Part shown: positions 1-24,648 of the stretch, one piece after another | Numbering within the stretch: position 1 is the stretch's first letter | Layout: the number at the start of each line of letters is the position of its first letter | Origin: a virus | Direction: 5' to 3' (one strand) | Virus record (IMG/VR): IMGVR_UViG_3300046532_000070 | Location: 1-26,061 of that record | Length of the DNA: 26,061 nucleotides | Position numbers and translations under genes: made by a program | The notes under the pieces: model-generated | Databases searched by the model: none | Told to the model about the DNA's origin: nothing | The model's input: only the letters and a program-made list of their open reading frames with translations

Positions 1-977
1 AAGTATGTAGTATAGTTTTCCATGTAGTCAATTACTTTTGCAACAACCATGTCTTTATGAGCATTGTAAGATTCTATTGACTCAGTCCACACACCTGGAT
101 ATTTAAATTCTGGTGTTGACATTTCACTGTAGCTTAGTCTATCTGGCACCATAGGCAATGCTCCAACAAGAGCACCTTCGTACCAACTAATACCAAGTGT
201 TTCTTGCAAGTTAGCACTAAACACCATTTTAGCACGACCTAGTAAATTATGATATTCATTCTTTGTAAGTTCTTGTTCTTGACAAACAATAAACTCGTAT
301 TGCGGAAGTGCTTCTTTAAGATCTCTAAAAATCTCAACTTGCTTCTCAGGAGCAACACGATGCGGAAAGAGTATAATATCTTCCTTCGGCATACCTTTAT
401 AACTGTCTAAACTGTTAGCAAGATACTCCATAGGCCAACCAACTCGTTTCATTGATCTACGATCAAGTACTCCAACATCTTTAGCAAACGCATCTGCAAA
501 CATCTCTATGTGAAACTTTGTTGCAAAGTAATTATCATTGTAACAGTTGTACATTGATAACTCTGCTTGTCTTACCCACGGCTTATCGCCAATTAGCCTA
601 CCAAGGAAGTCATGAGGATCATAACTACCAGCATGCCAAAGACCACCGATTCGGATGTCAACGCCAAGTAACTCAGCCATGTAACGAAGCTGGATAACAG
701 TTGGGTTCCACGCATCCGTATATAGGAAATAATCTCCATCTTTAATTTCTCCATTAGCAAACAGTCTACTAATCTCCAACATTTGTTGCGACTTGTAGTT
801 GTTAGTGCCTGCAAAGTTTAAAAATGCCCCAGGCGTTGTAGCCTGAGGCACCTCTCCTCCACTAATGACAGTAACATTGGCACCAGTTGCACGTTGCATT
901 TGCTTTGGAAGATACTCTTTCCACTGCTTTGTATAACGTGTATCTACTGCTTCAATGTCTACTATATATGCTGTCAT
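1..977 (-). CDS. GT4-like glycosyltransferase, C-terminus cut by window edge
   Basis: A 325-codon open frame begins at the ATG at 977 and runs off the left edge, so the end of the protein is missing. The second half has the look of a GT-B glycosyltransferase: ILFPHRVAPEKQ near residues 202-213 starts the donor-binding Rossmann domain, and E259 and E267 (in ETLGISWYE) form the EX7E motif of family GT4 retaining enzymes. The N-terminal half (YIVDIEAVDTRY, then YFLYTDAW) is less typical. The start overlaps the stop of the next upstream gene as TAATG, which suggests coupled translation. It lies at the end of the DpdA-like modification cluster, so a role in glycosylating phage DNA or a surface sugar is possible, but the acceptor cannot be read from sequence. 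Confidence 0.75.
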   Translation of the reverse strand, partial: MTAYIVDIEAVDTRYTKQWKEYLPKQMQRATGANVTVISGGEVPQATTPGAFLNFAGTNNYKSQQMLEISRLFANGEIKDGDYFLYTDAWNPTVIQLRYMAELLGVDIRIGGLWHAGSYDPHDFLGRLIGDKPWVRQAELSMYNCYNDNYFATKFHIEMFADAFAKDVGVLDRRSMKRVGWPMEYLANSLDSYKGMPKEDIILFPHRVAPEKQVEIFRDLKEALPQYEFIVCQEQELTKNEYHNLLGRAKMVFSANLQETLGISWYEGALVGALPMVPDRLSYSEMSTPEFKYPGVWTESIESYNAHKDMVVAKVIDYMENYTTY

Positions 978-1195
978 TAGTTACTCTTCCGTCCTCGGGT
1001 AAACGTCTTACCCTTTTTATTATTTTTACGATCCTTCAACTTGGAAGGGTCTTGATAGAACTGCCACGTACGACTGTTCTTGTTATATAAATCTTTTTCA
1101 TCAAACTTAAAACCGTAGTTACGACAAAAAACACGATACTTGTCCAGATCCTCAAAAATATTAACGATCTCGGGTTTTGACTCCCAGTACGACAT
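977..1195 (-). CDS. Small conserved-looking phage protein, function unknown
   Basis: A 72-residue basic protein with a strong ribosome site (AGAGGAG seven bases before the ATG at 1195). It begins MSYWESKPEIV and ends in a Lys/Arg-rich tail (KDRKNNKKGKTFTRGRK), which would suit nucleic-acid binding, though no known domain was recognised. Its TAA stop shares one base with the glycosyltransferase start, so the two are probably translated together. It is about 12 bases downstream of the T-fold gene and most likely in the same transcript. Confidence 0.6.
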   Translation of the reverse strand: MSYWESKPEIVNIFEDLDKYRVFCRNYGFKFDEKDLYNKNSRTWQFYQDPSKLKDRKNNKKGKTFTRGRKSN

Positions 1196-1206: not shown

Positions 1207-1587
1207 CTAGCTTTTCGCATACTCAATGTGGGCACCGTTCTCTCCATCTTCGGAGACATCGATGTGGACTTCACGTCCAGGGTATTTGGCATTAATTTGT
1301 GTGTACAAATCATCAGCCATCATTTCACAACTTTTGTAATCTACATTTAATTCGCCTTCATAAAGTTTTACAAGCCATCGTTTAAACTGAATAAATTCGA
1401 TATCTCTGTCGTTGTGTGTTACAGTGATAGCGACCTTAAAATGAAATATGTGTCTATGGGGATATCCCAAAAAACTAACATCATATTCATCACCTGTTGC
1501 AAGACTAGGATCCTCTAGTGCCGCAGGATATTTATGGATACCTTCTTTTGTAAAGTTTACCCAAATCATTCTCTTTGCATTGTTCAT
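1207..1587 (-). CDS. QueD/6-pyruvoyl-tetrahydropterin synthase-like T-fold protein
   Basis: The frame is open from an ATG at 1671, but a near-perfect sigma70 -10 box touches that ATG, so transcripts would start inside it. The ATG at 1587 (MNNAKRMIWVNF) has AAGG upstream and is preferred, giving 126 residues. The pattern resembles the QueD/PTPS tunnelling fold. A first His lies in EGIHKYPAA, an H-x-H in GYPHRHIFHFKV matches the HGH zinc motif, DRDIEFIQFKRWL matches the strand-helix VxDFxxLK segment, SCEMMADDLY matches TAENLA, and a late Glu is in VSEDGENG. QueD makes 6-carboxytetrahydropterin, a step towards preQ0, which fits the nearby DpdA-like gene. Proteins of this type are, as I recall, common in marine T4-like phages without a proven function, so catalysis is not assured. 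Confidence 0.55.
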   Translation of the reverse strand: MNNAKRMIWVNFTKEGIHKYPAALEDPSLATGDEYDVSFLGYPHRHIFHFKVAITVTHNDRDIEFIQFKRWLVKLYEGELNVDYKSCEMMADDLYTQINAKYPGREVHIDVSEDGENGAHIEYAKS

Positions 1588-1671
1588 AAGCGTTACCTTG
1601 CTTTCTTCTTTTAATCGTCGAGCCATATAATTATGATGTGACTCTCTTTGGTTAGTTGTACTTGTACTCAT

Positions 1672-1700
1672 ATTATAACATCTTTCTTACTCACTGTCAA
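1672..1700 (-). promoter_or_regulatory. Sigma70-type promoter for the T-fold gene
   Basis: On the minus strand TTGACA (1695-1700) and TATAAT (1672-1677) are separated by 17 bases, a perfect match to the bacterial housekeeping consensus. The -35 lies in the end of the upstream gene. The -10 directly abuts the ATG at 1671, so the transcript should start near 1665, inside the long form of the ORF. Confidence 0.85.
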
Positions 1701-2196
1701 CCGGATTATCGTCACCGTAAGCTCTCCAATCCGTAAACTTATCTCTTTGTAGCAGTGGATGTATATTGTGTACCCATACACCCGGATTAGAATGATCAAA
1801 GTCTGCATCATCAATCTTAATACAAGCATTGTAGTTAAGTTGATTTACGTATGGCAGTTTAACACTAATCATACTAATAAAGTTATGATCCTCATTATAC
1901 CCACTTTCAAGTATCCATTCATGATACTTTGCATCATAGTCTAATGTAACCAAAAATTTCTTATTAAGTAGTCCTTGTACAAGATCGTCCCAACTTTCTT
2001 TAGGAACAAAACTGTGGTTAGCACCTAAGTAGATGTGTTCAACTGAGTGTTCTTTTGCTTTTGCAAGAACATCTTCTAATGGCTGACATCCTGTTACAAA
2101 TAATGTATGCTCACCTTCAGCAGGTGTTTTTTCTACTTCATAACCTGTAAAGTATATAACATCATCTTTTACGCCGTCTGTATAATCTCTTTTCAT
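1687..2196 (-). CDS. Conserved-looking phage protein of unknown function in the modification cluster
   Basis: A 169-residue acidic protein starting at the ATG at 2196. I do not recognise a domain with confidence. The sequence alternates strands and helices (TLFVTGCQPLEDVLAKAKE, then VEHIYLGANHSF, then KFLVTLDYDA), like part of an alpha/beta or TIM-barrel protein. It lies between the 2OG oxygenase and the QueD-like gene. A radical-SAM QueE role was considered because of VTGCQPLE, but the CxxxCxxC iron-sulphur motif is absent. It has its own sigma70 promoter just upstream, inside the end of the oxygenase gene. Confidence 0.65.
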   Translation of the reverse strand: MKRDYTDGVKDDVIYFTGYEVEKTPAEGEHTLFVTGCQPLEDVLAKAKEHSVEHIYLGANHSFVPKESWDDLVQGLLNKKFLVTLDYDAKYHEWILESGYNEDHNFISMISVKLPYVNQLNYNACIKIDDADFDHSNPGVWVHNIHPLLQRDKFTDWRAYGDDNPVDSE

Positions 2197-2202
2197 ATTA
2201 CT

Positions 2203-2231
2203 ATAATAGCACTAAAGTGACTTGTCGTCAA
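2203..2231 (-). promoter_or_regulatory. Sigma70-type promoter upstream of the 1687-2196 gene
   Basis: TTGACG (2226-2231), a 17-base spacer and TATTAT (2203-2208) on the minus strand. The -35 is within the last codons of the 2OG oxygenase gene. The -10 ends 6 bases before the ATG at 2196, so the leader would be very short or absent. Confidence 0.75.
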
Positions 2232-2811
2232 GTGCTTTTCCTCCTAAATTGCCATTAAATGCGATTGATATACGTGTTTGGTTGCTCAAATTCTCTGTAA
2301 CACAATGATTGATCCAACCCGGAAACGATACTAAGTCTCCAGCACTTGGCATTACTGTATATCGTGTTCCATTAAACGGTGTAGGGTTTGTAACTAATTT
2401 ATAAGGTAATGCATAGTCCATTAATCCGTGTGGACTAATTAGAACAAGGTTTCCTGAATCTTTTGGTGCTTGAACATAATATACTGCTGACATAATATGT
2501 CCGGGGTGCATATGTACTTCGTGTGTATTAGATCTAGATGTATTATTAACGTTTATCCAGGCTTGTGTTACGTCAATAGTACAGTTGTCAGCAATACCTA
2601 ATAGGTTAGCTTGTTTGTTAAACATGTTCTGTACTTGTAACAACAGGGGTTGTAGTATAACGTTGTTAAGATCAAGATGATCACTTTGCCAGTTCTTCAT
2701 ATCAGAATCTGGCATATAGAGGCCATTGCAGAAAGCAGTTAACGTGACATTGTCAACTTTGTCCGCATGTTCATACAAGAATGGCGTTGCAAAAAGCGAC
2801 TCTGTATGCAT
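2212..2811 (-). CDS. 2OG-Fe(II) oxygenase-like protein (TIGR02466-type)
   Basis: This 199-residue protein has the double-stranded beta-helix signature of putative phage 2-oxoglutarate/iron oxygenases. HEVHMHPGHIMSAVYYV (from residue 97) carries the first metal His residues, GDLVSFPGWINH supplies the distal His at 169, and R180 in TRISIAFN is the likely 2OG-binding Arg. The proximal motif is H-x-H rather than the classic H-x-D, as I recall for the TIGR02466 type. A good ribosome site (AAGGAG) precedes the ATG. It is directly downstream of the DpdA-like gene, so hydroxylation of a modified base or nucleotide is a reasonable guess; protein hydroxylation is equally possible. Confidence 0.8.
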   Translation of the reverse strand: MHTESLFATPFLYEHADKVDNVTLTAFCNGLYMPDSDMKNWQSDHLDLNNVILQPLLLQVQNMFNKQANLLGIADNCTIDVTQAWINVNNTSRSNTHEVHMHPGHIMSAVYYVQAPKDSGNLVLISPHGLMDYALPYKLVTNPTPFNGTRYTVMPSAGDLVSFPGWINHCVTENLSNQTRISIAFNGNLGGKALDDKSL

Positions 2812-2821
2812 AGCTGTCTCC

Positions 2822-4351
2822 TTATAAAGTTTCTTCTAAAGCGTCTAGTTTATCTTCAGACATCTCTGGCTCTTCGTCAATTACATCAGAGTCACCAATG
2901 TCAAATAAGTTACCAAAGTGTGTACTTGCATTTACAGTTTTCTTACCTGTTGCACCACGTGTACCGATAATGGTCATAAACATCTTTGAATGATCTTCTA
3001 TGATTTGTTCGGCTTTTTCTCTACTGTCAGTTGCGAATATTGCGTCCACAACATCTCTAAAAAATACCCTGTCAAAACGCTCTTCGACAAGCATCTTTGG
3101 TACAACTCCATTGTCGTATTGTCTATTTGCTTCTTGTACTGCATTAATGTGACTCCATACATTATGACCCATTTGGATCGCATAGGAAAAACTATCCCAA
3201 CTAGTCTTGCCTTCTTTACCAATCTTATTTAAGTCACCTGGACCATATATGCAAACGTCTTTGGTTTTTAGTTCAGTAGTAAGCGGGCTGTCTTTAAAGC
3301 TCTTATGCTTACCAGCACTAACAAATGAAGTACTCCACGGTGTTGTATCTTGTGAAAGTCCTTTGTCATCTAAGCTAGGAACCATTCGATACACCCACTT
3401 TGATCTATCACCTGTTTCTAATTCACAATACACTTGTCCGTTTGCTGTTGCTAAAAATGGAGAAGCACAGTCAAATGTAATCATAAAGTTTTTGTTGTGA
3501 TACTTACGAACTGCTCTTTGTACATCAGTTAGTAGTGTAGCCCATTCTAGTTTACTTGTACCTAGAAAGTGCATTACATCATGTAAGCCTTCTTCAAGTA
3601 ATCCATCAAACCGTAATGCAATAAGTCTTTTCAAAACTAGATGAATATCACACATGTTCTGCCCACCCATTGACCAACCATTAAAATGATTGTCTGGATA
3701 CACAGCTGGGTCACAATAGTCTTTCATTTGATGATACCAATCTTCTGCATCAGCATGATTCTCTCCTTGTAACACATTAAGGAACTTACATGCTCCTGAA
3801 CGATGTTTCATAAAGTAATCATTATTAATACGTGTAGCATCAACTGCTTCTTGATATGAACTAACACCTGTAGCTTTAACTCCTGCTGGGCTACGTGCTA
3901 CCCAAGCTGGAATATCAAGTATCATACCATAGTCCATGTATGCGTCCATCCATGCAAGAACTTGTGTACGTTTCTTCATTGCCTTAGGACAGTTAGGATC
4001 TTTCCAGTCACCTTCCCACACACCCTTACCAATTTGGAAACCACCTGAGTCACCAAGCATCCAACTAGTAGTACGATCTCTTTTTCGTACCATATCTTCT
4101 TTAGGTGCGTCTTTATTAATATCAAGTTCAGCATGACCTGCGGAGTATAAACTCCAATGATATTGAAACTGACCATCTTTACGATTTAACCAGTTAAGAC
4201 TTTCTACACCGTTTTTAAAGTTTGACGGAACACGCTTGTAGTCTACGTATTCGCCTCGTTGTTGTTTACCTACAAATGTAGCATAGAAGCCACTAAGTGC
4301 TGGTAAAAACGTTGCAAAGTCTTTCTGTTCTGCGGTTAAATCGATGTTCAT
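2822..4351 (-). CDS. dpdA: TGT-like base-exchange enzyme, DpdA type
   Basis: A 509-residue protein with the hallmarks of the tRNA-guanine transglycosylase fold. DSGGFQ (101-106) is the substrate-binding signature with the general acid/base Asp, LNVLQGE (191-197) and WSMGGQ (226-231) match the NxLQG and GG loops, and FDCASP (293-298) carries the likely nucleophile D294. Near the C-terminal part, MGHNVWSHINAVQEANR resembles the HNL helix of TGT, but the canonical Cys3 zinc motif is not seen. Phage members of this family (DpdA) insert 7-deazaguanine bases into DNA, and phage rather than cellular context favours DNA over tRNA as substrate. The stop is 10 bases before the oxygenase start. Residues after about 430 are lineage-specific. 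Confidence 0.75.
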   Translation of the reverse strand: MNIDLTAEQKDFATFLPALSGFYATFVGKQQRGEYVDYKRVPSNFKNGVESLNWLNRKDGQFQYHWSLYSAGHAELDINKDAPKEDMVRKRDRTTSWMLGDSGGFQIGKGVWEGDWKDPNCPKAMKKRTQVLAWMDAYMDYGMILDIPAWVARSPAGVKATGVSSYQEAVDATRINNDYFMKHRSGACKFLNVLQGENHADAEDWYHQMKDYCDPAVYPDNHFNGWSMGGQNMCDIHLVLKRLIALRFDGLLEEGLHDVMHFLGTSKLEWATLLTDVQRAVRKYHNKNFMITFDCASPFLATANGQVYCELETGDRSKWVYRMVPSLDDKGLSQDTTPWSTSFVSAGKHKSFKDSPLTTELKTKDVCIYGPGDLNKIGKEGKTSWDSFSYAIQMGHNVWSHINAVQEANRQYDNGVVPKMLVEERFDRVFFRDVVDAIFATDSREKAEQIIEDHSKMFMTIIGTRGATGKKTVNASTHFGNLFDIGDSDVIDEEPEMSEDKLDALEETL

Positions 4352-4360
4352 GTATATGTC

Positions 4361-5092
4361 CTATTTTGTTTGTGCTGGTAGAATATAATCGTATTGACCC
4401 ATTCCACTATCAACACTCAATGCCATAGCACCTTGATCGCTGATCTTCATAGTTACTTTACCATCAAGATTTAAGATAGCTTGTACTTGTGCTACAGGCC
4501 AACTCCACGCATGTTTTAGTTCACTACCAACATCATGTTGGAATACAAATGAACCAGCATGTTGCGAAGCATCACCAAATGCAAATACTAAGTTACCGTC
4601 TTGTGTCTTAACTGTAAATGTAGTTTCTTCCGAATGTGCCGCACTCTGCAACTTCATTCTAGTAATACTAGCCATACTTGGATCAATAGTTACGTCCCAA
4701 GATGCACCTTTAAACTTTACAGTTTTAAGTTTCTCGTCGATAATTGCTTTGTTCATAAAGCGATAATCGTTTTCAAAGTCACCACTTGCATTTTCAAAGT
4801 GGATGTGTGTAGGAATAGTTTCACCATTACGTTCTGCTAGTTCAACACTAATCTTTGCTTCTTTCTGATATTCAGGATTCTTTAAGTGTAATGCTAACTT
4901 ATCTAAGTTAGGCATACCAAAGGTTCCTTTAAATTCATTTACTGATGCTTTGGTTGTAGCAGTAAGAATAACACTTCTGTCTTCAGCCATTGATTCGATT
5001 GTAGTTGCCGCATCTTCGCCAGTGACTTTAACAAGGGTTAAGAACCCTAACGAATGTGTATGTGCAACAACGTCTTGTAAGATATCTTTCAT
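4361..5092 (-). CDS. 45: Sliding clamp, DNA polymerase processivity factor (gp45-like)
   Basis: The protein (243 residues from the ATG at 5092) resembles T4-type gp45 clamps in length, in its acidic beta-rich pattern and in its C-terminal DYILPAQTK. gp45 forms a trimeric ring that tethers the polymerase; in T4 it also couples replication to late transcription, which fits the NATAAATA late promoters seen here. The frame is open back to 5152, but a sigma70 promoter lies at 5124-5152, so the longer start would be upstream of the transcript. ATGGAGAAATG provides GGAG ten bases before the chosen ATG. The TAG stop lies in the ribosome site of the DpdA-like gene downstream. Confidence 0.7.
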   Translation of the reverse strand: MKDILQDVVAHTHSLGFLTLVKVTGEDAATTIESMAEDRSVILTATTKASVNEFKGTFGMPNLDKLALHLKNPEYQKEAKISVELAERNGETIPTHIHFENASGDFENDYRFMNKAIIDEKLKTVKFKGASWDVTIDPSMASITRMKLQSAAHSEETTFTVKTQDGNLVFAFGDASQHAGSFVFQHDVGSELKHAWSWPVAQVQAILNLDGKVTMKISDQGAMALSVDSGMGQYDYILPAQTK

Positions 5093-6429: not shown

Positions 6430-9099
6430 TTATTCTCCGAAGTCAAACAACGTATTAAATGTATTGTTTTGCAATGTACTTGCAAGATCGTAATTCAACA
6501 CACCAATTAAGTTGTCTAGTTTGTTATCAATAATAGTAGACTCCATTGTGTCACCATCGAACGGTAAGTCTTTAAACCATTGTGGTATATGCATTTCATC
6601 TACAGGGTATGCAACACTTGTGTATCCTAATGGATTACCTTTTAGTTTACAAACAATAACCTTCATACCATCAACAATCTCTTGTGAGTACTTGTCACCA
6701 TTCATACGTTTAAGTGTATTCCAATTGATACTTGCTCTTACGTGTCCAGGCATTGTTGCTTTGCCCATCTTCGCTTCTTTACGTTGATACTCACCAATCT
6801 TGTTTGCACGTTTAGGCGAACCTTTTTCGTAACCAGGTCTAAGTTTAAATGCAGTCCTAAACTCTGTAATAGCATCAAGTATGTCTTGCTGAACATTATC
6901 TGTAAGCACCATAAGTAATAGCTTACTTAAAAACTCTTGCATAAACACAGGTGTATCACTACGTTTAAGATCAAGACCCATTGCTTTTACTTTACCTTGT
7001 TTGCCGTCTTTGTCCATACGTTCTCCTTCGAGATCATATATAAGTGCCGCATAACGTTTCTTAGTAATAAACAATCCGCTCTCAGCAACAATCTCACGAC
7101 CAGCCGCAATAACGTCCGACCTACTCTTTGGACAATGGAATGCATCTGCCATAAACTTTGGAAACGTAGTATTAGCCGCTTCACAAACTTGATCGTAAAG
7201 TTTAATAACACTATCTTTAGTCCAAGGAATACTACCTGCTTCGATATCTTTTTGTAAGATAGGCCAAGCACTAAAGTACACAGAGTCAGTATCTCCGTAA
7301 ATAACACTATCACCAGTGTGATCATATGTGCCTGTAATAGTCTTGTTAACTTCTGCACTCATGTGTTTTGCAATAGCTCTGCCTGTTAGTGTAGTACTTT
7401 GACCAATACGTGGATCAAAGAATCTACAACCTGGATTAAGAATCGCACCATACAAACTGTTCAAGTTAATCTTTTTAACTAGCTGTCGTTTATCCCAGAA
7501 TTCAATTTCAACTTTGTTACCAGCATCAAGAGCTTTGCCTTTCATTTTTTGTAATTCTTTACGTTCACTATACCAACGTTTAAGTAGTCCAGGAATAACT
7601 CCGTCGAACTCGTTAGTTATGATAGTACCGTTAGCAGTTAGCATCCAAGGCTTGTGTGAATCAAATATTAACTTGTGCATTTCAGCACCACTCATTATAA
7701 CTGTTTCACCAGTTTCAAAGTCTACATTAAGACTAATGTCTTTACGCTTTTCCATAACTGCTTCATATTCTATTGTAGCAAATCGGCCTTCCCATGCACC
7801 AGCAAATGATTTCTTTTGAAGTGTCATTGCATCTTCTACCATTGCGTTAGTTAAATCAGGACGTAGTTGTCCTATAACTGTTGCCGGATCCATGTTCAAC
7901 GCACGAATAACTGATGGATATAGTGAGTTCAAATCCATTGAACCAATCCACTTGTGTAAACCTTTTTTAGGAAATGCTACATACGCACCTGCCGCAGGCT
8001 CACTACCTGGCTCACGTTTAATTCTATTAGGAACTTGTAAGCCTCTATGATGTGCTTCGTTAATAATTGCTTGTTCTGTAACTGCAACTGCACCCATTGT
8101 AGTTTGTAGCAACACCGTGTTACTATGTGCAAGTTCGTTACTAAGATCAATAAACTTTAGTTTTTGGTCTAGCTTGTCTAGTAATGCAGTATCTTGTCTG
8201 TTGTACTCAATGAATGTTCGGAAGTCATTGTTGTAAAGTTGATCAAGTGTACCTTCGTAAACTGTCTTGTTCTCACCAATTTCTAGTTCACCAATAGCGT
8301 CAAGTCTATATGTGTGTCGTTCTTCATAGGTGTATTTACGATACAATTCTAAACTATCTAAATGCACTCTGCCTATTAGGTCATAAGTAACGGCTTGTTT
8401 TCCATACTTTTCGTATTCACGTTTCTTAGGAAGTTGTTTCCATAAACAAAAACGTCTTGTATCATCTTTGCTTAGTACACGAGCAACACGATTCACAGTA
8501 TAAGGAATATCATATCCTTCACTGTTCCAACCTGTTAGTATATCACTATCTTGTATAATGTCAAGAAATGCTTCTAGCATATCAGACTCTTTTTCATACA
8601 AGTAAGTATTAGGAAATTCTTCGCACTCTTTTTCTGCGTCTGCCATGCTTAACCCCTTAGGAGGTATTGCAAATGTAACTAGAGTATCTAACCATTGTAG
8701 GTGTACACTAATAGCAGTAATGGGCATAAACGGATCACTAGGATCAGCAAACCCACGTTCTGGATCAAAGTCAGTCTCAATATCAAAGAACGCAACATTT
8801 AGTTTAGGTGACTCTACGTTTAAATAGTTTTCACTTAGACATTGAAAGATTGGGTTGATATCGCTTTCGAGTAATTCTTTGTTTGCATTGATTGCAAGTT
8901 CCTTACGGAACTGTTTTGTATTTTTACAAATAATTCTACTTAGGGGATCGCTGTAGATACTTTTGTACTTGCCCTTAGGATCTTTGTAATAGAAGGTGTA
9001 CTTAATTGGGTATTCTGTGTAAGATCGTTTGCCGTCTTTACGTTCCACAACTCTGATAACGTCTTGGTCGCGATCAAATTGTGCGTCTACATAACTCAT
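6430..9099 (-). CDS. 43: Family B DNA polymerase with proofreading domain (T4 gp43-like)
   Basis: An 889-residue replicative polymerase, close to T4 gp43 (898). The exonuclease motifs are FFDIETD (D106, E108), WNSEGYDIPY (D187) and YNRQDTALL (D293). The polymerase motifs are A, DLNSLYPS (379-386); B, KKINLNSLYG (about 532-541); and C, YGDTDS (591-596) with catalytic D593 and D595. All catalytic residues are present, so the enzyme should be active. The C-terminus (TLFDFGE) fits a clamp-binding tail. A strong ribosome site (AAGGAG, 9107-9112) precedes the ATG, and a 5-base-pair hairpin lies just upstream of it. The upstream promoter at 10030-10058 probably drives it through the three small genes between. 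Confidence 0.97.
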   Translation of the reverse strand: MSYVDAQFDRDQDVIRVVERKDGKRSYTEYPIKYTFYYKDPKGKYKSIYSDPLSRIICKNTKQFRKELAINANKELLESDINPIFQCLSENYLNVESPKLNVAFFDIETDFDPERGFADPSDPFMPITAISVHLQWLDTLVTFAIPPKGLSMADAEKECEEFPNTYLYEKESDMLEAFLDIIQDSDILTGWNSEGYDIPYTVNRVARVLSKDDTRRFCLWKQLPKKREYEKYGKQAVTYDLIGRVHLDSLELYRKYTYEERHTYRLDAIGELEIGENKTVYEGTLDQLYNNDFRTFIEYNRQDTALLDKLDQKLKFIDLSNELAHSNTVLLQTTMGAVAVTEQAIINEAHHRGLQVPNRIKREPGSEPAAGAYVAFPKKGLHKWIGSMDLNSLYPSVIRALNMDPATVIGQLRPDLTNAMVEDAMTLQKKSFAGAWEGRFATIEYEAVMEKRKDISLNVDFETGETVIMSGAEMHKLIFDSHKPWMLTANGTIITNEFDGVIPGLLKRWYSERKELQKMKGKALDAGNKVEIEFWDKRQLVKKINLNSLYGAILNPGCRFFDPRIGQSTTLTGRAIAKHMSAEVNKTITGTYDHTGDSVIYGDTDSVYFSAWPILQKDIEAGSIPWTKDSVIKLYDQVCEAANTTFPKFMADAFHCPKSRSDVIAAGREIVAESGLFITKKRYAALIYDLEGERMDKDGKQGKVKAMGLDLKRSDTPVFMQEFLSKLLLMVLTDNVQQDILDAITEFRTAFKLRPGYEKGSPKRANKIGEYQRKEAKMGKATMPGHVRASINWNTLKRMNGDKYSQEIVDGMKVIVCKLKGNPLGYTSVAYPVDEMHIPQWFKDLPFDGDTMESTIIDNKLDNLIGVLNYDLASTLQNNTFNTLFDFGE

Positions 9100-10062: not shown

Positions 10063-10599
10063 TTATTCGGCCTGTGGTCGCTCAATAGTTAAATTGCCCG
10101 CTACGACTATTCTTTCTCGATCGTTCTTTTGTTCTGGTACGCTATGTGTTACCCACCCTGGAAATACAACCATAAGTCCTGAATTTAGATATATTGCATT
10201 GCCGCTTGTTGGAAACACTAAAGGACTATCTTCAGGTGTTGCATCTACATAATATGTAAAACTCCAAATTGCAGGGTGATGTGCATGGGCATTACAACTG
10301 TCGCCCTTTCTATATAATGCACCCCAGCAATCAGTAACGACATACTTTCCTAAATTTGGTAAGTCAAGACCAGCTTTGACAACGTCAATTGCAAAATTAA
10401 TTATCTTTTCAAAATCGGGATCTTTAAACATTGTCCATTTAGTCATGTCAGCTTGAACGTTTGTTTTTCTATATTGAAGGTCACCCTGGGCTCGAATCTT
10501 CTCTGCGAGTATCGGGTTAATTGTTTCAGCTTCGGGATACACCATTGTAAATACATCGGCTGTTTCGCTGAAGGTTAAGTTTTGCACGTTTGGTATCAT
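10063..10599 (-). CDS. 2OG-Fe(II) oxygenase-like protein, second copy
   Basis: A 178-residue putative iron/2-oxoglutarate dioxygenase. AHAHHPAIWSFTYYVD (104-119) provides the proximal His residues (H105, H107, H108), GLMVVFPGWVTHSVP the distal H152, and RERIVVAGN (161-169) the 2OG-binding Arg. It shares the overall plan of the oxygenase at 2212-2811 but is clearly diverged in sequence, so it is not a recent duplicate. No ribosome site precedes the ATG at 10599. Instead a perfect TATAAATA late promoter lies 5 bases upstream, which predicts a leaderless late mRNA. It is transcribed as a late gene while the other oxygenase is in an early cluster, suggesting different substrates. Confidence 0.8.
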   Translation of the reverse strand: MIPNVQNLTFSETADVFTMVYPEAETINPILAEKIRAQGDLQYRKTNVQADMTKWTMFKDPDFEKIINFAIDVVKAGLDLPNLGKYVVTDCWGALYRKGDSCNAHAHHPAIWSFTYYVDATPEDSPLVFPTSGNAIYLNSGLMVVFPGWVTHSVPEQKNDRERIVVAGNLTIERPQAE

Positions 10600-13552: not shown

Positions 13553-13779
13553 TTCTTTTTACGTCCTCTAAAGCCTTGTGGCATATTTTGGTTAGTCATG
13601 TAAGGTCTATTAAACCAAAGTTTAAACCAATCTTGATCACCAGGTTTTAAACCTAATTTTTTTTCTTTTTGTTTTAGAGCTGTTGCAGTGATACTAGGGT
13701 TTTCGTCAATCTTATATTCGGAGTAACCTTTATATTCGTTTACGCCTGCAAGTTGAATTATACGTTCTAGTTCATCCAT
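13549..13779 (-). CDS. Small basic late protein, function unknown
   Basis: A 76-residue protein starting MDELERIIQLAGVNE and ending in a very basic tail (GFRGRKKK). VNE at 13-15 and IDE at 25-27 could be protease sites but are weaker matches than in the neighbours. KPGDQDWFKLWFNRPYM suggests a small folded core. It is coupled to both neighbours: TAATG with the nucleotidyltransferase upstream and ATGA with the HAD gene downstream. Confidence 0.65.
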   Translation of the reverse strand: MDELERIIQLAGVNEYKGYSEYKIDENPSITATALKQKEKKLGLKPGDQDWFKLWFNRPYMTNQNMPQGFRGRKKK

Positions 13780-15395
13780 TACTTTGCTTTGGCCTTACCA
13801 GCTTTCATATTAGCCATCCAATGTGCCATACGTTGCTTTTCGCCACTGCTACCTTTTGCAGTTTTTCTTAAACTACTTACACTTGCTTTAGTATCAACTC
13901 CACTACGCTTGGCTAATCCTTTACGTCCGGGCTTCTTGCCGTCTGCAAAGTTTTCATCGTAGTGTGCATCTTTGTTTCCACCTGCGTCTTGTGTCTTATA
14001 GCCCATCTTCTTTAGAGCTACTTTAATAATTTCATCTTCTTCAGGACTAAACGGAACAATCATTACATCTGGCTCAGATGGATTAACATCGTCTGGGTCC
14101 ATAGTATCTGTGTTTGCAAGGTGTGTACCTAGCTTAATAAAATCATACGCTGTGTCTGACTTTGCTAACGTACTACTTTTAGGATTAGGAATTAGATCAC
14201 CTTCATTTTTCATAGAGGCAACATTACTAATCATTTTATAGATATCGCCGCCTGCTTTTTTAAATGCTTGTGAAACTTCTTTCTCTGTAAACTTTAAATA
14301 ATCAACCATGTACATTGCAAGGCCAGCTTCACCATCGCCTTTGTACATATCAATTAAGTCTTGTTCTAAATTACTACTACTTTCGTTAGCATGTATTGCG
14401 GCTTGTTGTTTCTTACGCATAGGATGTCCTTTACCGTGGATACCTTTCTTACGTCCGTCACCTTCTTTCATAGCAGAAATAAGCATGTCTTCTAATTTGT
14501 TTAACTCGTCTCTATCAACTTCAAATTGTGTTAATACTTTTTCTAATTCTTTTTCGTCTTTTGTTTTAATTAACTCGTTATACAGTTTCGTTCCACCGTA
14601 TAGTGCTACTGCAATACCAACAGCTGGTAATCCGTATCTGCCTAGTGCTTGTGTAACAGGGTGATCTAAGAATCTGTTAGCCCATTTTACTGCATCTCTT
14701 ACCCAAGGATAAACTTTCCAAGTAGCAGTTAAGAACCCTATGGCCCATTTATTGTTCCAAAAGAACTTACCAATTTTACCAACAGCCATTACGCCTCTAA
14801 GAGCAGGTACTGCCCATTCGTCTAAACTTTCATCTTCTGTAGCAATGCCCATACCTTTTCTAACTTGGTCGTACATTGAAAGAGCAAACATTGGACTAGC
14901 AACACCTTTCTTGAAACTATTGTAGTCACCTTCTTGTGCCGCGGCTCTCATTTTACTTGCACTCATGCCTTCAGCACCTTCTGCATCGGGATCACGTTCG
15001 CCTGCACTTACAATATTAATACTGTTAAACTTATAATCTTTGCCGTTGTAGTCATTTAATAGTTTAGTAAATGAATCAACTCTATCACTACCTGCTACAT
15101 ACACAATGTCTGTGTAACCTTTAGCTTCTAAATTCTGCATTGCTTGGATAATAGTTTTTACTTTAGGATCACCAATTTCAACTCCAGGGAAACTCTTCGA
15201 TGCGAAGTACATCTTCTCTGGAAAAGGTAGTGGATCTGTTTTAGGTTTTTGTGTTTGGCTTAAAAATAGAAAAGGATCACCTTGTTGTGACTTTACTACG
15301 TCAGCTAATTTAGCGTGTCCAATAGTGGGAGGGTTCATTCTACCAAATGCAAACACCGCAGTTTTGGGTGCTTCAAATAACTCTCTTAGAAACAT
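13779..15395 (-). CDS. Nucleotidyltransferase fused to a putative virion domain, CTS-like leader
   Basis: A 538-residue protein. It starts MFLRELFE-APKT (LFE before Ala, a gp21-type site). Residues about 12-190 are a cytidylyltransferase/NMN-adenylyltransferase fold: FGRMNPPTIGH (17-27) is the HxGH-type site with Thr in the first place, YVAGSDRVDSF is the middle motif, and MSASKMR the ISSTxxR motif. Residues about 205-290 contain two hydrophobic stretches (WAIGFLTATWKVYPWV and YGLPAVGIAVALYGG). The rest is charged and ends Lys-rich (WMANMKAGKAKAK). Phage proteins of this head type are annotated as cytidyltransferases in cyanophages. The enzyme could act in NAD or CDP chemistry; the tail suggests a packaged or ejected protein. 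Confidence 0.8.
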   Translation of the reverse strand: MFLRELFEAPKTAVFAFGRMNPPTIGHAKLADVVKSQQGDPFLFLSQTQKPKTDPLPFPEKMYFASKSFPGVEIGDPKVKTIIQAMQNLEAKGYTDIVYVAGSDRVDSFTKLLNDYNGKDYKFNSINIVSAGERDPDAEGAEGMSASKMRAAAQEGDYNSFKKGVASPMFALSMYDQVRKGMGIATEDESLDEWAVPALRGVMAVGKIGKFFWNNKWAIGFLTATWKVYPWVRDAVKWANRFLDHPVTQALGRYGLPAVGIAVALYGGTKLYNELIKTKDEKELEKVLTQFEVDRDELNKLEDMLISAMKEGDGRKKGIHGKGHPMRKKQQAAIHANESSSNLEQDLIDMYKGDGEAGLAMYMVDYLKFTEKEVSQAFKKAGGDIYKMISNVASMKNEGDLIPNPKSSTLAKSDTAYDFIKLGTHLANTDTMDPDDVNPSEPDVMIVPFSPEEDEIIKVALKKMGYKTQDAGGNKDAHYDENFADGKKPGRKGLAKRSGVDTKASVSSLRKTAKGSSGEKQRMAHWMANMKAGKAKAK

Positions 15396-16679: not shown

Positions 16680-17330
16680 TTATTTATCTAGTTCTGTACT
16701 CGATACGATTTTATCGATACGCATGAAGTCTCGCTTTAAAAACAATCTTATTAGTGTTATAGTAGCATGATCTTTAACGTACATGTACTTTCCTTTTAGA
16801 TTATACCCACCTTTAATGTCACTTAATACAACGCCACCTATCTTAATTTTGTCTTTATGTTTTAAACAAAATCCAGCTAAGTTAGGATCTGCTGATCCGT
16901 TAAGTGTAACCTTATAAGCAAACTTAATAGTGTCGTTAATAATAACACCCTTAGGAAGATCAGCATTATCTCTGGGCATGTGTATAGAACACACAGCATT
17001 TAATTTACTGTTTAGTTGCTTAACCCATTCAAAGTTATTAGTGTATATACCTAAGTGCCACGTTTCGCAACGTAGCTTATAGTCTTCTTCTTGATTAGTA
17101 AATTCATGTAATAGAGTCTGTAAGTCTTTTAGTTCTTCTTGACTTACTCGTACATCTCTCATTCCTATACGAAGGAACCCATTACCAGTTGCTTGGTCTA
17201 ATGCACTATCGATTGACTTTCGTGCAAAGGACATGTTCTTATTTCTAAAAACATGCCCTAGTGCGTTTGACAAGTCTACTTTATATTTGTATTTGTCAAA
17301 GAATAGTTTAGTTGAGTCAATCTTGATCAA
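16680..17330 (-). CDS. Unknown protein co-translated with the ClpA-like gene
   Basis: A 216-residue basic protein. The only start that gives the full open frame is a TTG at 17330, which lies inside the last codons of the clpA-like gene (14-base overlap), so translational coupling is likely; the next ATG (17234) would drop 32 residues. The sequence has a helical N-terminal third and a beta-rich end (IKFAYKVTLNG, GGYNLKGKYMYVKDHATITLIRLF). No domain was recognised. Its position as the last gene of the dnaJ-def-clpA transcript suggests a substrate, adaptor or partner of that machinery, which is inference. Confidence 0.65.
   Translation of the reverse strand: MIKIDSTKLFFDKYKYKVDLSNALGHVFRNKNMSFARKSIDSALDQATGNGFLRIGMRDVRVSQEELKDLQTLLHEFTNQEEDYKLRCETWHLGIYTNNFEWVKQLNSKLNAVCSIHMPRDNADLPKGVIINDTIKFAYKVTLNGSADPNLAGFCLKHKDKIKIGGVVLSDIKGGYNLKGKYMYVKDHATITLIRLFLKRDFMRIDKIVSSTELDK
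16681..16688 (-). promoter_or_regulatory. Late promoter GATAAATA, leaderless spacing
   Basis: Minus-strand GATAAATA overlapping the stop of the 16680-17330 gene, with 5 bases (ACTAT) before the ATG at 16675. It marks the switch from the early-promoted dnaJ operon to the late virion genes. Confidence 0.75.
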
Positions 17331-19575
17331 CGGTTTCTGGCTCCTTAACCTTAGACTTAACTGATGTTAAATCAAATGCACCATCTTTAACATCGATATG
17401 TAATGTACCGCCGTTTTTCAATTCACCAAACAACAATACTTTAGATAGCGGAGTCTTAATATCGTTATCAATAACACGTTGTAACGGTCTTGCACCCATT
17501 TTACTATCAAAGCCTTTGTCAATAAGGAAGTCAATAGCTTCATCGGAAATAGTAGTTTCAACATCTTTGTCAGTTAGCATAACTTTAAGATCAACTAAGA
17601 ACTTACCTACAATTTTAATCATTGTATTTTTATCTAACTTACCAAATGTCATAATACCATCAAGTCTGTTACGGAACTCTGGAGCAAAGAATTTTTTAAG
17701 TTCACTATCATCGTGTTCTTTTTCCATCTCACCAAAGCCAACTGTATTAGTTTCAGCTTCCGCGGAACCTAAGTTAGTTGTAAGAATCATTACAATGTTT
17801 CTACAATCAGCAGTCTTGCCGTTTGAACCTGTAACAAATCCGTTATCCATAATCTGTAATAATAGTTGACTAACATCTGGATGTGACTTCTCAATTTCAT
17901 CAAGCAGTAGTACACAGTTAGGATTTTCTTGTACTTTAGTAATAAGTAATCCTGAATTTTCTTCAAAGCCAACGTAGCCTGGAGGTGAACCAATAAGTTT
18001 AGCAACACTATGCTTCTCTTGATATTCACTCATATCAAATCTAATTAGTTTTACACCTAGTTGACTAGCTAATTGTTTTGCAGTTTCAGTCTTACCAACA
18101 CCAGTTGGACCCATAAACACAAATGAACCAATTGGTTTATTATCTGCTTTAAGTCCTGCTTGAGCAACATGAATCTTATCTACAATACTATCAATTGATT
18201 CGTCTTGTCCGTAGATCTCTGCTTTCATATTATGATTTAAGTTAGCAAGGTTACTTGTTTCAGTTTCCATAATCTGCTCAGGTGGCAAGTTAATCATCTT
18301 AGCAAGTTCAAATTGAATCTCTCTCATGCCAACTACTTTAGACGTATCTTCTTTAAGTTTAAATCTTGAACATGCAACGTCTAGTAAGTCAATAGCTTTA
18401 TCTGGTAGCTTCTTATCTGTTTGAAATTTGATACTAAGTTTAATAGCAGTATCAATAGCCGCCTCAGTAATTTCTACTTTATGAAATTCTTCGTAATACT
18501 TTTTAATACCAGTAAGAATATCTTTAGTAACATCTTTACTAGGCTCGTCAACACTTACACGAGCAAATCTACGCATTAATGCACGATCCTTTTCAAAGAA
18601 CTTACGATACTCTTCCCATGTAGTTGAAGCAACTACTTTAATATTACCTTTAGTAAGAATAGGCTTTAACATGTTTGCTAGATCATTTGACTGTCCAGCA
18701 CCGCCAGCACCAGCACCACTTATCATGTGTGCTTCGTCAATGAACATAATAGTCTTGCCTTTCTTTTTAAGTCCAGCAATAACTAATTTAAAGCGTTCTT
18801 CAAAGTCTCCACGGTACTTACTACCAGCTAACATACTACCAATGTCTAGGTTATACACTGAATACTCTTTTAAGAATTCAGGCACTTTACCATTTACAAT
18901 ATTGTATGCAAGTCCTTCTGCAATAGCAGTTTTACCTACACCCGGCTCACCAACTAGCAGTACGTTGTTCTTCTGTCGACGACCAAGTGCTAGTGCAATG
19001 CTTTCGAGTTCTTCTGAACGTCCAATTACAGGATCAATCTTACCTGTCTCAGCGTCAATATTAAGGTTTGTAGTAAATGAACGCAATGCTCTAGTAGCCA
19101 TGCCTTGCATTTCTTCATCTTCATAACTTGCTTCAAGCTCGTTGTTTAGATAGTCTGCAAACTTTTCTTTTTCAATTCCAGTTTCACTAATAAAGTACAA
19201 TGCCCAACTTTTCTTTTCGTTGAACATACTCAAGAACACATCAGTAACTTCAATGTTATTGCGTCCGCTGAATAACACTTGAGTAAATGCTCTGTTTAAT
19301 ACACGCTCTACTGCTTGTGTTTTCTTAGGCTTGTACTTCTTAGGTACTTCAACCATTAACAAATCAGTGCATTTAGTTTTTAGATAATTTTCAACATTCT
19401 TTTTCATAAACTCAGGATCAGCTGTTCCGTACCCTGATACTATATTCGAAAAGTCTTCCTCGCATAGCATTGCAAATAGCAAATGCTCTAAGGTAAGATA
19501 CTCATGGCTGAGTTGCTTAGTAACTTCTGTTGCTTTATCGAATATCTTCTGTAAGTTTTCGCTAGGTTCAACCAT
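17317..19575 (-). CDS. clpA: ClpA/ClpC-type AAA+ unfoldase
   Basis: A 752-residue Hsp100 ATPase, close to E. coli ClpA (758). A Clp N-domain (about 1-145) is followed by AAA+ module 1 with Walker A GEPGVGKT (209-216) and Walker B IMFIDEA (276-282), then module 2 with GPTGVGKT (489-496) and VLLLDE (555-560). It ends with the D2 small domain (GARPLQRVI). The ClpB/ClpC middle coiled-coil is absent. VGF at 612-614 sits where ClpA has IGL and ClpC has VGF, the loop that docks on ClpP, so it may couple to host ClpP. The ATG overlaps the deformylase stop (TAATG). All ATPase residues are intact. Confidence 0.93.
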   Translation of the reverse strand: MVEPSENLQKIFDKATEVTKQLSHEYLTLEHLLFAMLCEEDFSNIVSGYGTADPEFMKKNVENYLKTKCTDLLMVEVPKKYKPKKTQAVERVLNRAFTQVLFSGRNNIEVTDVFLSMFNEKKSWALYFISETGIEKEKFADYLNNELEASYEDEEMQGMATRALRSFTTNLNIDAETGKIDPVIGRSEELESIALALGRRQKNNVLLVGEPGVGKTAIAEGLAYNIVNGKVPEFLKEYSVYNLDIGSMLAGSKYRGDFEERFKLVIAGLKKKGKTIMFIDEAHMISGAGAGGAGQSNDLANMLKPILTKGNIKVVASTTWEEYRKFFEKDRALMRRFARVSVDEPSKDVTKDILTGIKKYYEEFHKVEITEAAIDTAIKLSIKFQTDKKLPDKAIDLLDVACSRFKLKEDTSKVVGMREIQFELAKMINLPPEQIMETETSNLANLNHNMKAEIYGQDESIDSIVDKIHVAQAGLKADNKPIGSFVFMGPTGVGKTETAKQLASQLGVKLIRFDMSEYQEKHSVAKLIGSPPGYVGFEENSGLLITKVQENPNCVLLLDEIEKSHPDVSQLLLQIMDNGFVTGSNGKTADCRNIVMILTTNLGSAEAETNTVGFGEMEKEHDDSELKKFFAPEFRNRLDGIMTFGKLDKNTMIKIVGKFLVDLKVMLTDKDVETTISDEAIDFLIDKGFDSKMGARPLQRVIDNDIKTPLSKVLLFGELKNGGTLHIDVKDGAFDLTSVKSKVKEPETVDQD

Positions 19576-23799: not shown

Positions 23800-24648
23800 T
23801 TACCCTAGTAACTTTTTTATTGTATTTGGTCCTACTATTCCGTCAGCAGTTAAGCCGTTAGCGCCTTGCCATTCTTTAACAATACGTGCAGTACCTGGAC
23901 CAAAGATGCCATCAGCAGGTGAAATATCAAGTTTCTCTTGTACTTCTGCTACTAGTGGACCACGTGATCCTACTCGAATAGTTTGATTATAATCAACTGT
24001 TGGTTCTTCATAGTCGCCACCTAATACATCTAAAGCATGTATGTAATGTTTCTTACGATCTTCTAAACCAATTGTACCACCGTTGATACGTTTTGTTGCT
24101 CCGACAATGTCTTGACCGTCACAATATTTGTTTAAGCCGTTTGTATCCCAGAACCAACAAGCTGAGTCTAGTGCGCCTTTCTTTGTGCGTACATAATCAG
24201 TTGCTTCTTCAGGAGACATTTCAACTGCTTTACTAAATTCTGTATAGTTGTAACGCCCAGTTAGCTGTAGTATGCCACCACCTCTAAATCTCCAACCATC
24301 ACCACTAGCAGTATCGCCGTTGTCCATGCGTGAAGCGTAAATAACGTTTGCAATTTTTTCTGGTTGTCTGTGATATGGTTGTGGGTCTCTTCCTGCTCGT
24401 ACAAAGTACTTGCCGAATATTTTATTTAATGCACTTGCACTATAATTTAAGTTTTCGCTTAGTGTTCTAAAGCCACCACTTTCGTGTCCACACTGAGCAA
24501 CAAACATAGCAACTCTTTCAATGGAATTTACTTCCCATAACGGAAGTATTTCAAGCATTGCTTCATACCAATCCTTCCAATCATCTCTATGAATAAGCTC
24601 TTCAGCCATCCACGGTTCAAAGTCGAATTTAAAATGTTCTTTGGCCAT
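23800..24648 (-). CDS. Endolysin: GH19 lysozyme/chitinase-like plus peptidoglycan-binding domain
   Basis: A 282-residue enzyme without a signal peptide. Residues about 35-205 form a glycoside hydrolase family 19 domain: AQCGHESGGF (51-60) holds the catalytic E56, LSENLNYSA the second acid E65, and GDGWRFRGGGILQLTGRYNY (116-135) is the family core motif. Residues about 222-282 are a PG_binding_1 domain (GSRGPLVAEVQEKL, DGIFGPGTARIVKEWQ, DGIVGPNTIKKLL). It degrades host peptidoglycan at lysis; without a signal it needs a holin for release. The binding domain is at the C-terminus, as in several Gram-negative phages. Confidence 0.93.
   Translation of the reverse strand: MAKEHFKFDFEPWMAEELIHRDDWKDWYEAMLEILPLWEVNSIERVAMFVAQCGHESGGFRTLSENLNYSASALNKIFGKYFVRAGRDPQPYHRQPEKIANVIYASRMDNGDTASGDGWRFRGGGILQLTGRYNYTEFSKAVEMSPEEATDYVRTKKGALDSACWFWDTNGLNKYCDGQDIVGATKRINGGTIGLEDRKKHYIHALDVLGGDYEEPTVDYNQTIRVGSRGPLVAEVQEKLDISPADGIFGPGTARIVKEWQGANGLTADGIVGPNTIKKLLG

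Follow-up and report, generated by a model that had tools for sequence, protein, structure and literature searches.

Known phages with 7-deazaguanine in their DNA either use a route via preQ0 (QueC) or reportedly carry plain derivatives of the base. The closest described systems are those of Vibrio phage nt-1 and its relatives (KVP40, Xanthomonas phage X1, ACP17 and BUCT-ZZ01), which use DpdA2, that of Enterobacteria phage 9g with its DpdA1, and that of the jumbo phage PA5oct. Here we analyse a 26-kb stretch of viral DNA (IMG/VR virus record IMGVR_UViG_3300046532_000070, positions 1-26,061), the whole of which is referred to below as the window. It encodes a 509-residue protein with the predicted fold of tRNA-guanine transglycosylases (TGTs), a putative paralogue of QueD and a glycosyltransferase. 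In our favoured, though not firm, reading, the window covers the upstream portion of a phage operon whose products exchange DNA guanine for a derivative of 7-deazaguanine made from 7-carboxy-7-deazaguanine (CDG), and the inserted base is then probably glycosylated. Three features set this operon apart: the subfamily of its DpdA-like enzyme, a route through CDG that lacks QueC, and an apparently dedicated glycosyltransferase. PA5oct encodes full-length homologues of the window TGT, glycosyltransferase and QueD paralogue, as well as QueE. Synthesis and incorporation of deazaguanine in this phage were predicted by Iyer et al. 2021 (PMC7824862), whose passage on the PA5oct system mentions neither a glycosyltransferase nor the exchange of QueC for DpdL described below. 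A literature search restricted to one collection retrieved no paper linking a glycosyltransferase to 7-deazaguanine DNA.

The TGT-fold enzyme

A first-pass annotation of the window, made from the sequence alone, had recognised TGT signatures in the 509-residue protein, and all of them were located in its reading frame: DSGGFQ at residues 101-106, NVLQG at 192-196 and FDC at 293-295. Among 61 dereplicated viral relatives D101, S102, G103, G104, Q106, D146, G196, H261 and D294 are invariant, and position 105 is F or Y; bacterial homologues keep D101 in 49/49 and D294 in 48/49 cases. Neither a Cys3His zinc motif nor a conserved Cys triad is present in the 61-relative alignment, as the annotation had suspected. 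The sole conserved Cys after D294 is C367, and H396 and H401 are also conserved; these residues might form a different metal site. Ser replaces Q195, where TGTs contact the base, in 10 of the 61 relatives and in PA5oct.

The protein has no match among the Pfam models (PF01702 included) or the PHROG models, and PDB sequence searches with single window proteins or profiles gave no useful match, so that a comparison of folds was needed. The structure prediction that the annotation had named as a check was performed using the 61 relatives and yielded a model with a predicted local distance difference test (pLDDT) score of 89.4 and a predicted template-modelling score of 0.89. Against solved structures, the best 50 VIA matches of this model are all TGTs (Z 17.8-19.1 over ~300 residues), and Foldseek also places TGTs first (E 1e-6). 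In the comparison with viral predicted structures DpdA2 of nt-1 (R9TGF0; E 1.5e-10) ranks high and is the nearest characterised viral structure, with a mycobacteriophage TGT (2.8e-4) and a protein of Cellulophaga phage phiST (3.3e-3) among the lower matches. The model thus assigns the enzyme to the TGT superfamily, with a predicted TIM-barrel fold of the TGT type and the Asp residues expected of general base and nucleophile.

Placement within the superfamily is less simple. Identity with the canonical tRNA TGTs (PF01702) was rejected, given the missing Pfam match and zinc site, as was membership in the DpdA1 subfamily (hhalign probability of 0.4% between the window family and 9g DpdA). By sequence the link to nt-1 DpdA2 is a distant one, with no BLAST match and a profile probability of 64-80% (P 1e-5 to 7e-5). 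The earlier designation of the enzyme as DpdA-like therefore holds as far as a TGT fold in a 7-deazaguanine operon is concerned; the family is not detectably DpdA1 and is distant from DpdA2. On the basis of these profiles it appears to constitute a DpdA-like subfamily of its own, distantly related to DpdA2, unless it is already labelled DpdA3 or DpdA4 in the literature, and it may indeed bear one of these names.

The DpdA2 enzymes share with the window enzyme the TGT fold, the DSGG(L/F)Q motif, Asp residues at the 'xDxP' and '(S/T)(F/Y)D' motifs and a position adjoining 7-deazaguanine synthesis genes; in X1, ACP17 and BUCT-ZZ01 they also stand beside homologues of the QueD paralogue and the glycosyltransferase, as does the window enzyme. 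The nt-1 protein (YP_008125322, 464 aa) adjoins QueC, and nt-1, unlike the window operon, uses QueC; DpdL was not found in nt-1. DpdA1 of 9g resembles the window enzyme in its proposed reaction and general fold class, but it lacks a profile match to the window family, is shorter (317 aa versus 509) and belongs to a pathway via Gat-QueC.

A paralogue of QueD and the exchange of QueC for DpdL

The annotation had read a QueD-like product from positions 1207-1587. The start of that frame is an internal in-frame ATG (126 aa), and the actual gene extends to 1671 and encodes 154 aa. The T-fold and the three histidines that had been noticed were borne out: the predicted model (pLDDT 94) has the order beta-beta-alpha-alpha-beta-beta, Foldseek ranks E. 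coli QueD first (E 1.4e-4), PTPS/QueD structures match at Z ~11, and H46, H72 and H74 are invariant and align with the zinc ligands of QueD (6-carboxy-tetrahydropterin synthase, 4ntk). The identification with QueD itself did not survive. We take the catalytic residues of QueD to be the Cys before HxH and an Asp-His pair. Phage QueDs retain them as Cys28 and Asp71-His72, whereas in the window protein and its relatives the position of the Cys is an invariant Leu68 and the Asp-His loop is deleted. Since these residues are absent and since a homologue stands beside a separate QueD in ACP17, phiST, BUCT-ZZ01 and RHph_I1_18, the modelled protein is best described as a paralogue of QueD, not QueD. 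Profile comparison with phage QueDs gives a probability of 12-52%, which is weak alone; the relation was settled by structure.

The paralogue is homologous (34% identity) to a phiST gene located next to FolE, QueD and QueE. This gene is presumably dpdL, coding for a predicted CDG decarboxylase; Cui et al. in 2023 reportedly described DpdL of phiST as 7-carboxy-7-deazaguanine decarboxylase. Homology to the phiST gene coincides with the absence of QueC, and the 154-residue protein is accordingly a candidate CDG-processing enzyme of the DpdL type. The TGT-like protein of phiST (259 aa) is far smaller than the window enzyme, and a glycosyltransferase homologue was not found nearby. In two phages, Bakedbeans of Vibrio and MA9V-3 of Chryseobacterium, a larger fusion protein has the DpdL-like domain as its C-terminal part (L174:8221-9369 and L176:8431-9309).

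A search to the left of the window for FolE, QueE and QueC had been recommended. A 90-kb contig that is 97.8% identical to the window over nearly its whole length extends leftwards and shows the order clamp-TGT-2OG oxygenase-169-aa protein-DpdL-like-72-aa protein-glycosyltransferase-cupin-phosphoribosyltransferase-HIT-FolE-QueE (2OG, 2-oxoglutarate). FolE and QueE were thus found, and the TGT-fold gene, as in phages with DpdA, accompanies genes of 7-deazaguanine synthesis; QueC and canonical QueD are absent from all 90 kb. Conservation was assessed in 159 IMG/VR relatives, 95 of which have loci with at least 4.5 kb downstream of the transglycosylase. Among these 95 loci the DpdL-like gene and the glycosyltransferase are each present in 94, the 169-aa protein in 88, the phosphoribosyltransferase in 80 and FolE in 78, the last being limited by contig ends. 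The sole locus lacking both DpdL and the glycosyltransferase (L084) carries QueC in its contig.

Cultured phages display the same exclusivity. A full-length QueC match was found in 0 of 11 complete cultured phage genomes with DpdL (QueD in 10 of 11), whereas both compared cultured phages without DpdL have a strong QueC match. In Vibrio phage 2.275.O the genes after the TGT homologue code for a QueF-like protein, a transporter, QueC and FolE, and neither DpdL nor the glycosyltransferase is among them. Partial or sub-cut-off QueC matches in G007, W12 (D479) and W09 (X1) were taken as other PP-loop ATPases. By these gene contents DpdL and QueC substitute for one another, an exchange that suggests a base derived from CDG and not from preQ0. 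The preQ0 or archaeosine implied by the annotation is consequently not the expected base, QueC being absent from the close relative and from the DpdL-bearing cultured phages.

The phosphoribosyltransferase (PF00156; e.g. L001:11902-12441) and the HIT-domain protein (L007:15960-16349) are conserved downstream parts of the operon. The former is related to a BUCT-ZZ01 protein annotated as xanthine-guanine phosphoribosyltransferase and may salvage the guanine freed by base exchange.

A glycosyltransferase paired with the transglycosylase

The first-pass annotation missed the gene at the window end, a partner as constant as the QueD-like gene. Glycos_transf_1 (PF00534) was matched by 25 of the 52 members of its family (best 8e-12); R202, K207 and E262 are kept in 52/52 and E254 in 47/52. 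The product is, by its motifs, predicted to be a GT4-type (GT-B) glycosyltransferase with intact donor-binding Arg/Lys and E-x7-E.

Matches to this protein are rare, occurring in 19 of 50,697 phage records. The best 15 (E <=4e-22) all carry DpdL, and 11 of these 15 belong to one PA5oct-like group. Its transglycosylase partners fall into two families, one represented by the window enzyme and the other by DpdA2 (X1, ACP17, BUCT-ZZ01). Weak matches from PhiXhv phages, which are surrounded by sugar genes, were excluded. In phages without the glycosyltransferase, DpdL goes together with a third family, made up of small proteins with TGT-like motifs (~260-300 aa in most; Table 1), which may correspond to published DpdA3; the glycosyltransferase was not found near these proteins in phiST, Ahp1, D479, Bakedbeans, RHph_I1_18 or MA9V-3.

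The pairing extends to bacterial chromosomes, where about 50 homologues of the window TGT were found. In seven bacterial genomes a single glycosyltransferase homologue, 41-52% identical to that of the window, lies directly beside the TGT homologue; DpdL, FolE and QueE were not found near the pair in those seven. Within the Rhodobacteraceae the family occurs in 2 of 294 genomes, both times beside the TGT. Taken together, the co-occurrence with DpdL in phages, the adjacency to TGT in bacteria and the rarity in Rhodobacteraceae argue that the glycosyltransferase is a dedicated partner of the transglycosylase; a common host polysaccharide enzyme is ruled out by rarity and position. The bacterial pairs are adjoined by a Vut_1/YhhQ-like transporter, and transporters of the YhhQ type import queuosine precursors (PMC6884629).

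In the ~50 proteobacterial chromosomes the TGT-like homologue lies near tyrosine recombinases and a conserved protein of ~570 aa without an assigned function (e.g. L230:6249-12861, L199:7422-10985 and L192:4221-12043, among L190-L240); the stretch probably represents a mobile island, so far undescribed, that encodes a base-exchange enzyme. Known defence systems gave no convincing PADLOC match to the bacterial island. Roseobacter islands encode, a few kb from the pair, a further glycosyltransferase that shares 32% identity with the enzyme adjoining DpdA2 in Synechococcus phage BUCT-ZZ01, hinting at a two-sugar decoration (loci L229, L230, L232, L233; L167:6376-7719).

Proposed pathway and alternative explanations

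In the pathway that we favour, FolE, QueD (from the phage or the host) and QueE would convert GTP to CDG, and the QueD paralogue, in the place of QueC, would turn CDG into the base for insertion, most likely 7-deazaguanine through decarboxylation as expected of DpdL. After replication, the TGT-fold enzyme would exchange guanine in DNA for this 7-deazaguanine-type base through TGT chemistry at Asp101 and Asp294, with the guanine thus set free probably passing to the phosphoribosyltransferase, and the GT4-type enzyme would most likely add a sugar to the inserted base. Several points weigh against this scheme. The function of DpdL is a presumed one. If DpdL does remove the 7-carboxyl, no obvious acceptor group remains at C7, and the sugar would therefore have to sit on C7 itself (C-glycosylation) or elsewhere, or else DpdL carries out another reaction on CDG. 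The bacterial pairs without DpdL, FolE and QueE mean that the sugar acceptor cannot be one simple story everywhere, and no glycosyltransferase homologue was found near DpdL in the six phages with small TGT-like proteins named above. Canonical QueD is present in 5 of 15 large uncultured contigs, all of them fragments.

Some of these points would be accommodated if the pathway were the same and the final base plain 7-deazaguanine or 7-carboxy-7-deazaguanine, the glycosyltransferase merely travelling along and modifying, for example, a protein or another DNA base. phiST and the other DpdL phages without the gene near DpdL indicate that DpdL can work without it, and a decarboxylase would leave no 7-substituent. 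Nevertheless, the glycosyltransferase is as constant as DpdL in the phages, and its pairing with the transglycosylase persists in bacterial islands devoid of DpdL, FolE and QueE. Action on hydroxymethylcytosine finds little support, as 13 of the 15 large contigs lack a gene of the thymidylate synthase/dCMP-hydroxymethylase family (PF00303 in 2/15) to supply such an acceptor. We therefore regard a mere co-traveller as somewhat unlikely.

Modification of tRNA by the two enzymes, with queuosine-like or glycosylated queuosine-like products, is decidedly improbable in our judgement. TGTs proper act on tRNA and glycosylated queuosine occurs in animal tRNA; yet the zinc motif of the tRNA enzymes is absent from the 509-residue protein, and the operon adjoins clamp and DNA polymerase genes. 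Furthermore, the structural neighbours include DpdA2 of nt-1, a phage with 7-deazaguanine in its DNA (PMC6884629), and the phage pathway stops at CDG, no QueA or QueG having been reported from viruses of this kind (PMC6884629). A standard system for preQ0 or archaeosine that relies on host QueC would fit FolE and QueE in the 97.8%-identical contig and the frequency of QueC in hosts, but QueC occurs in relatives without DpdL and glycosyltransferase and is absent from those with both, so that we give this explanation hardly any credence. Insertion of a CDG-derived base into DNA, probably followed by its glycosylation, remains the reading that we prefer.

Gene order and other features of the window

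The window comes from a large marine virus of the T4-like kind. The family B polymerase encoded in it is closest to those of the Sinorhizobium jumbo phage Phosso (51% identity) and other jumbo phages. From the polymerase the minus-strand order is 3'-5' exonuclease, epimerase, sliding-clamp-like protein, 509-aa enzyme, 2OG oxygenase, 169-aa protein, 154-aa protein, 72-aa protein and glycosyltransferase (Table 1). The oxygenase that the annotation had placed in the cluster is genuine; being rare in relatives, it is an accessory and not a core part of the gene set. The 169-aa family is nearly always located between the transglycosylase and the DpdL-like gene, with a homologue also beside DpdA2 in Acidovorax phage ACP17, and is a candidate for a missing member of the pathway. 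Elsewhere in the window PHROG matches were obtained for a second 2OG-Fe(II) oxygenase (10063-10599), a cytidyltransferase-like protein (13779-15395), an ATP-dependent protease (17317-19575) and an endolysin (23800-24648).

Table 1. Features of the operon region in the window, and members of the third small TGT-like family in other phage loci.
Feature	Position	Strand	Remarks
GT4-type glycosyltransferase (predicted), 325 aa	3..977	-	Cut by window end (~350 aa in relatives); conserved Arg-Lys and E-x7-E
Small basic conserved protein, 72 aa, function not assigned	977..1195	-	Between glycosyltransferase and DpdL-like gene; 47/48 close, 23/41 distant loci
T-fold QueD paralogue (predicted), DpdL-like, 154 aa	1207..1671	-	His46/His72/His74 invariant; without QueD Cys and Asp-His
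Conserved protein, 169 aa, function not assigned	1687..2196	-	Between DpdL-like gene and transglycosylase; 69/69 close, 53/61 distant
2OG-Fe(II) oxygenase, accessory operon insertion	2212..2811	-	PF13759, E 7e-22; 8/60 close, 0/52 distant relatives with enough sequence
TGT-fold base-exchange enzyme (predicted), DpdA-like, 509 aa	2822..4351	-	Expected catalytic pair Asp101/Asp294
Sliding-clamp-like protein	4361..5092	-	First gene upstream of transglycosylase; homologue of Phosso 'DNA polymerase III sliding clamp beta'; 74/74 close, 75/75 distant loci
Family B DNA polymerase	6430..9099	-	Replication-gene context beside operon
Third small TGT-like family	L173:9489-10358, L175:9692-10546, L174:16099-17022, L164:11071-12339, L166:9804-10583		

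Implications

More broadly, we put forward, as a tentative proposal, that in abundant marine myoviruses, in jumbo phages of the PA5oct/Paride type and in proteobacterial mobile islands a separate subfamily of DpdA-like enzymes introduces a 7-deazaguanine base into DNA and a dedicated GT4 enzyme glycosylates it there. If this is true, the product would be a purine counterpart of glucosylated hydroxymethylcytosine, and glycosylated purines, made by the coupled glycosyltransferase, would join the known modifications of phage DNA. It would represent a new pair of base-exchange enzyme and DNA glycosyltransferase, with homologues in the culturable phages PA5oct, Paride, Phosso, ACP17 and X1, and would explain a very common, unannotated operon of marine viruses (at least 599 candidate stretches). 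The proposal would also bear on how such phages avoid restriction, as a sugar-decorated base could hide the virus from bacterial defences.

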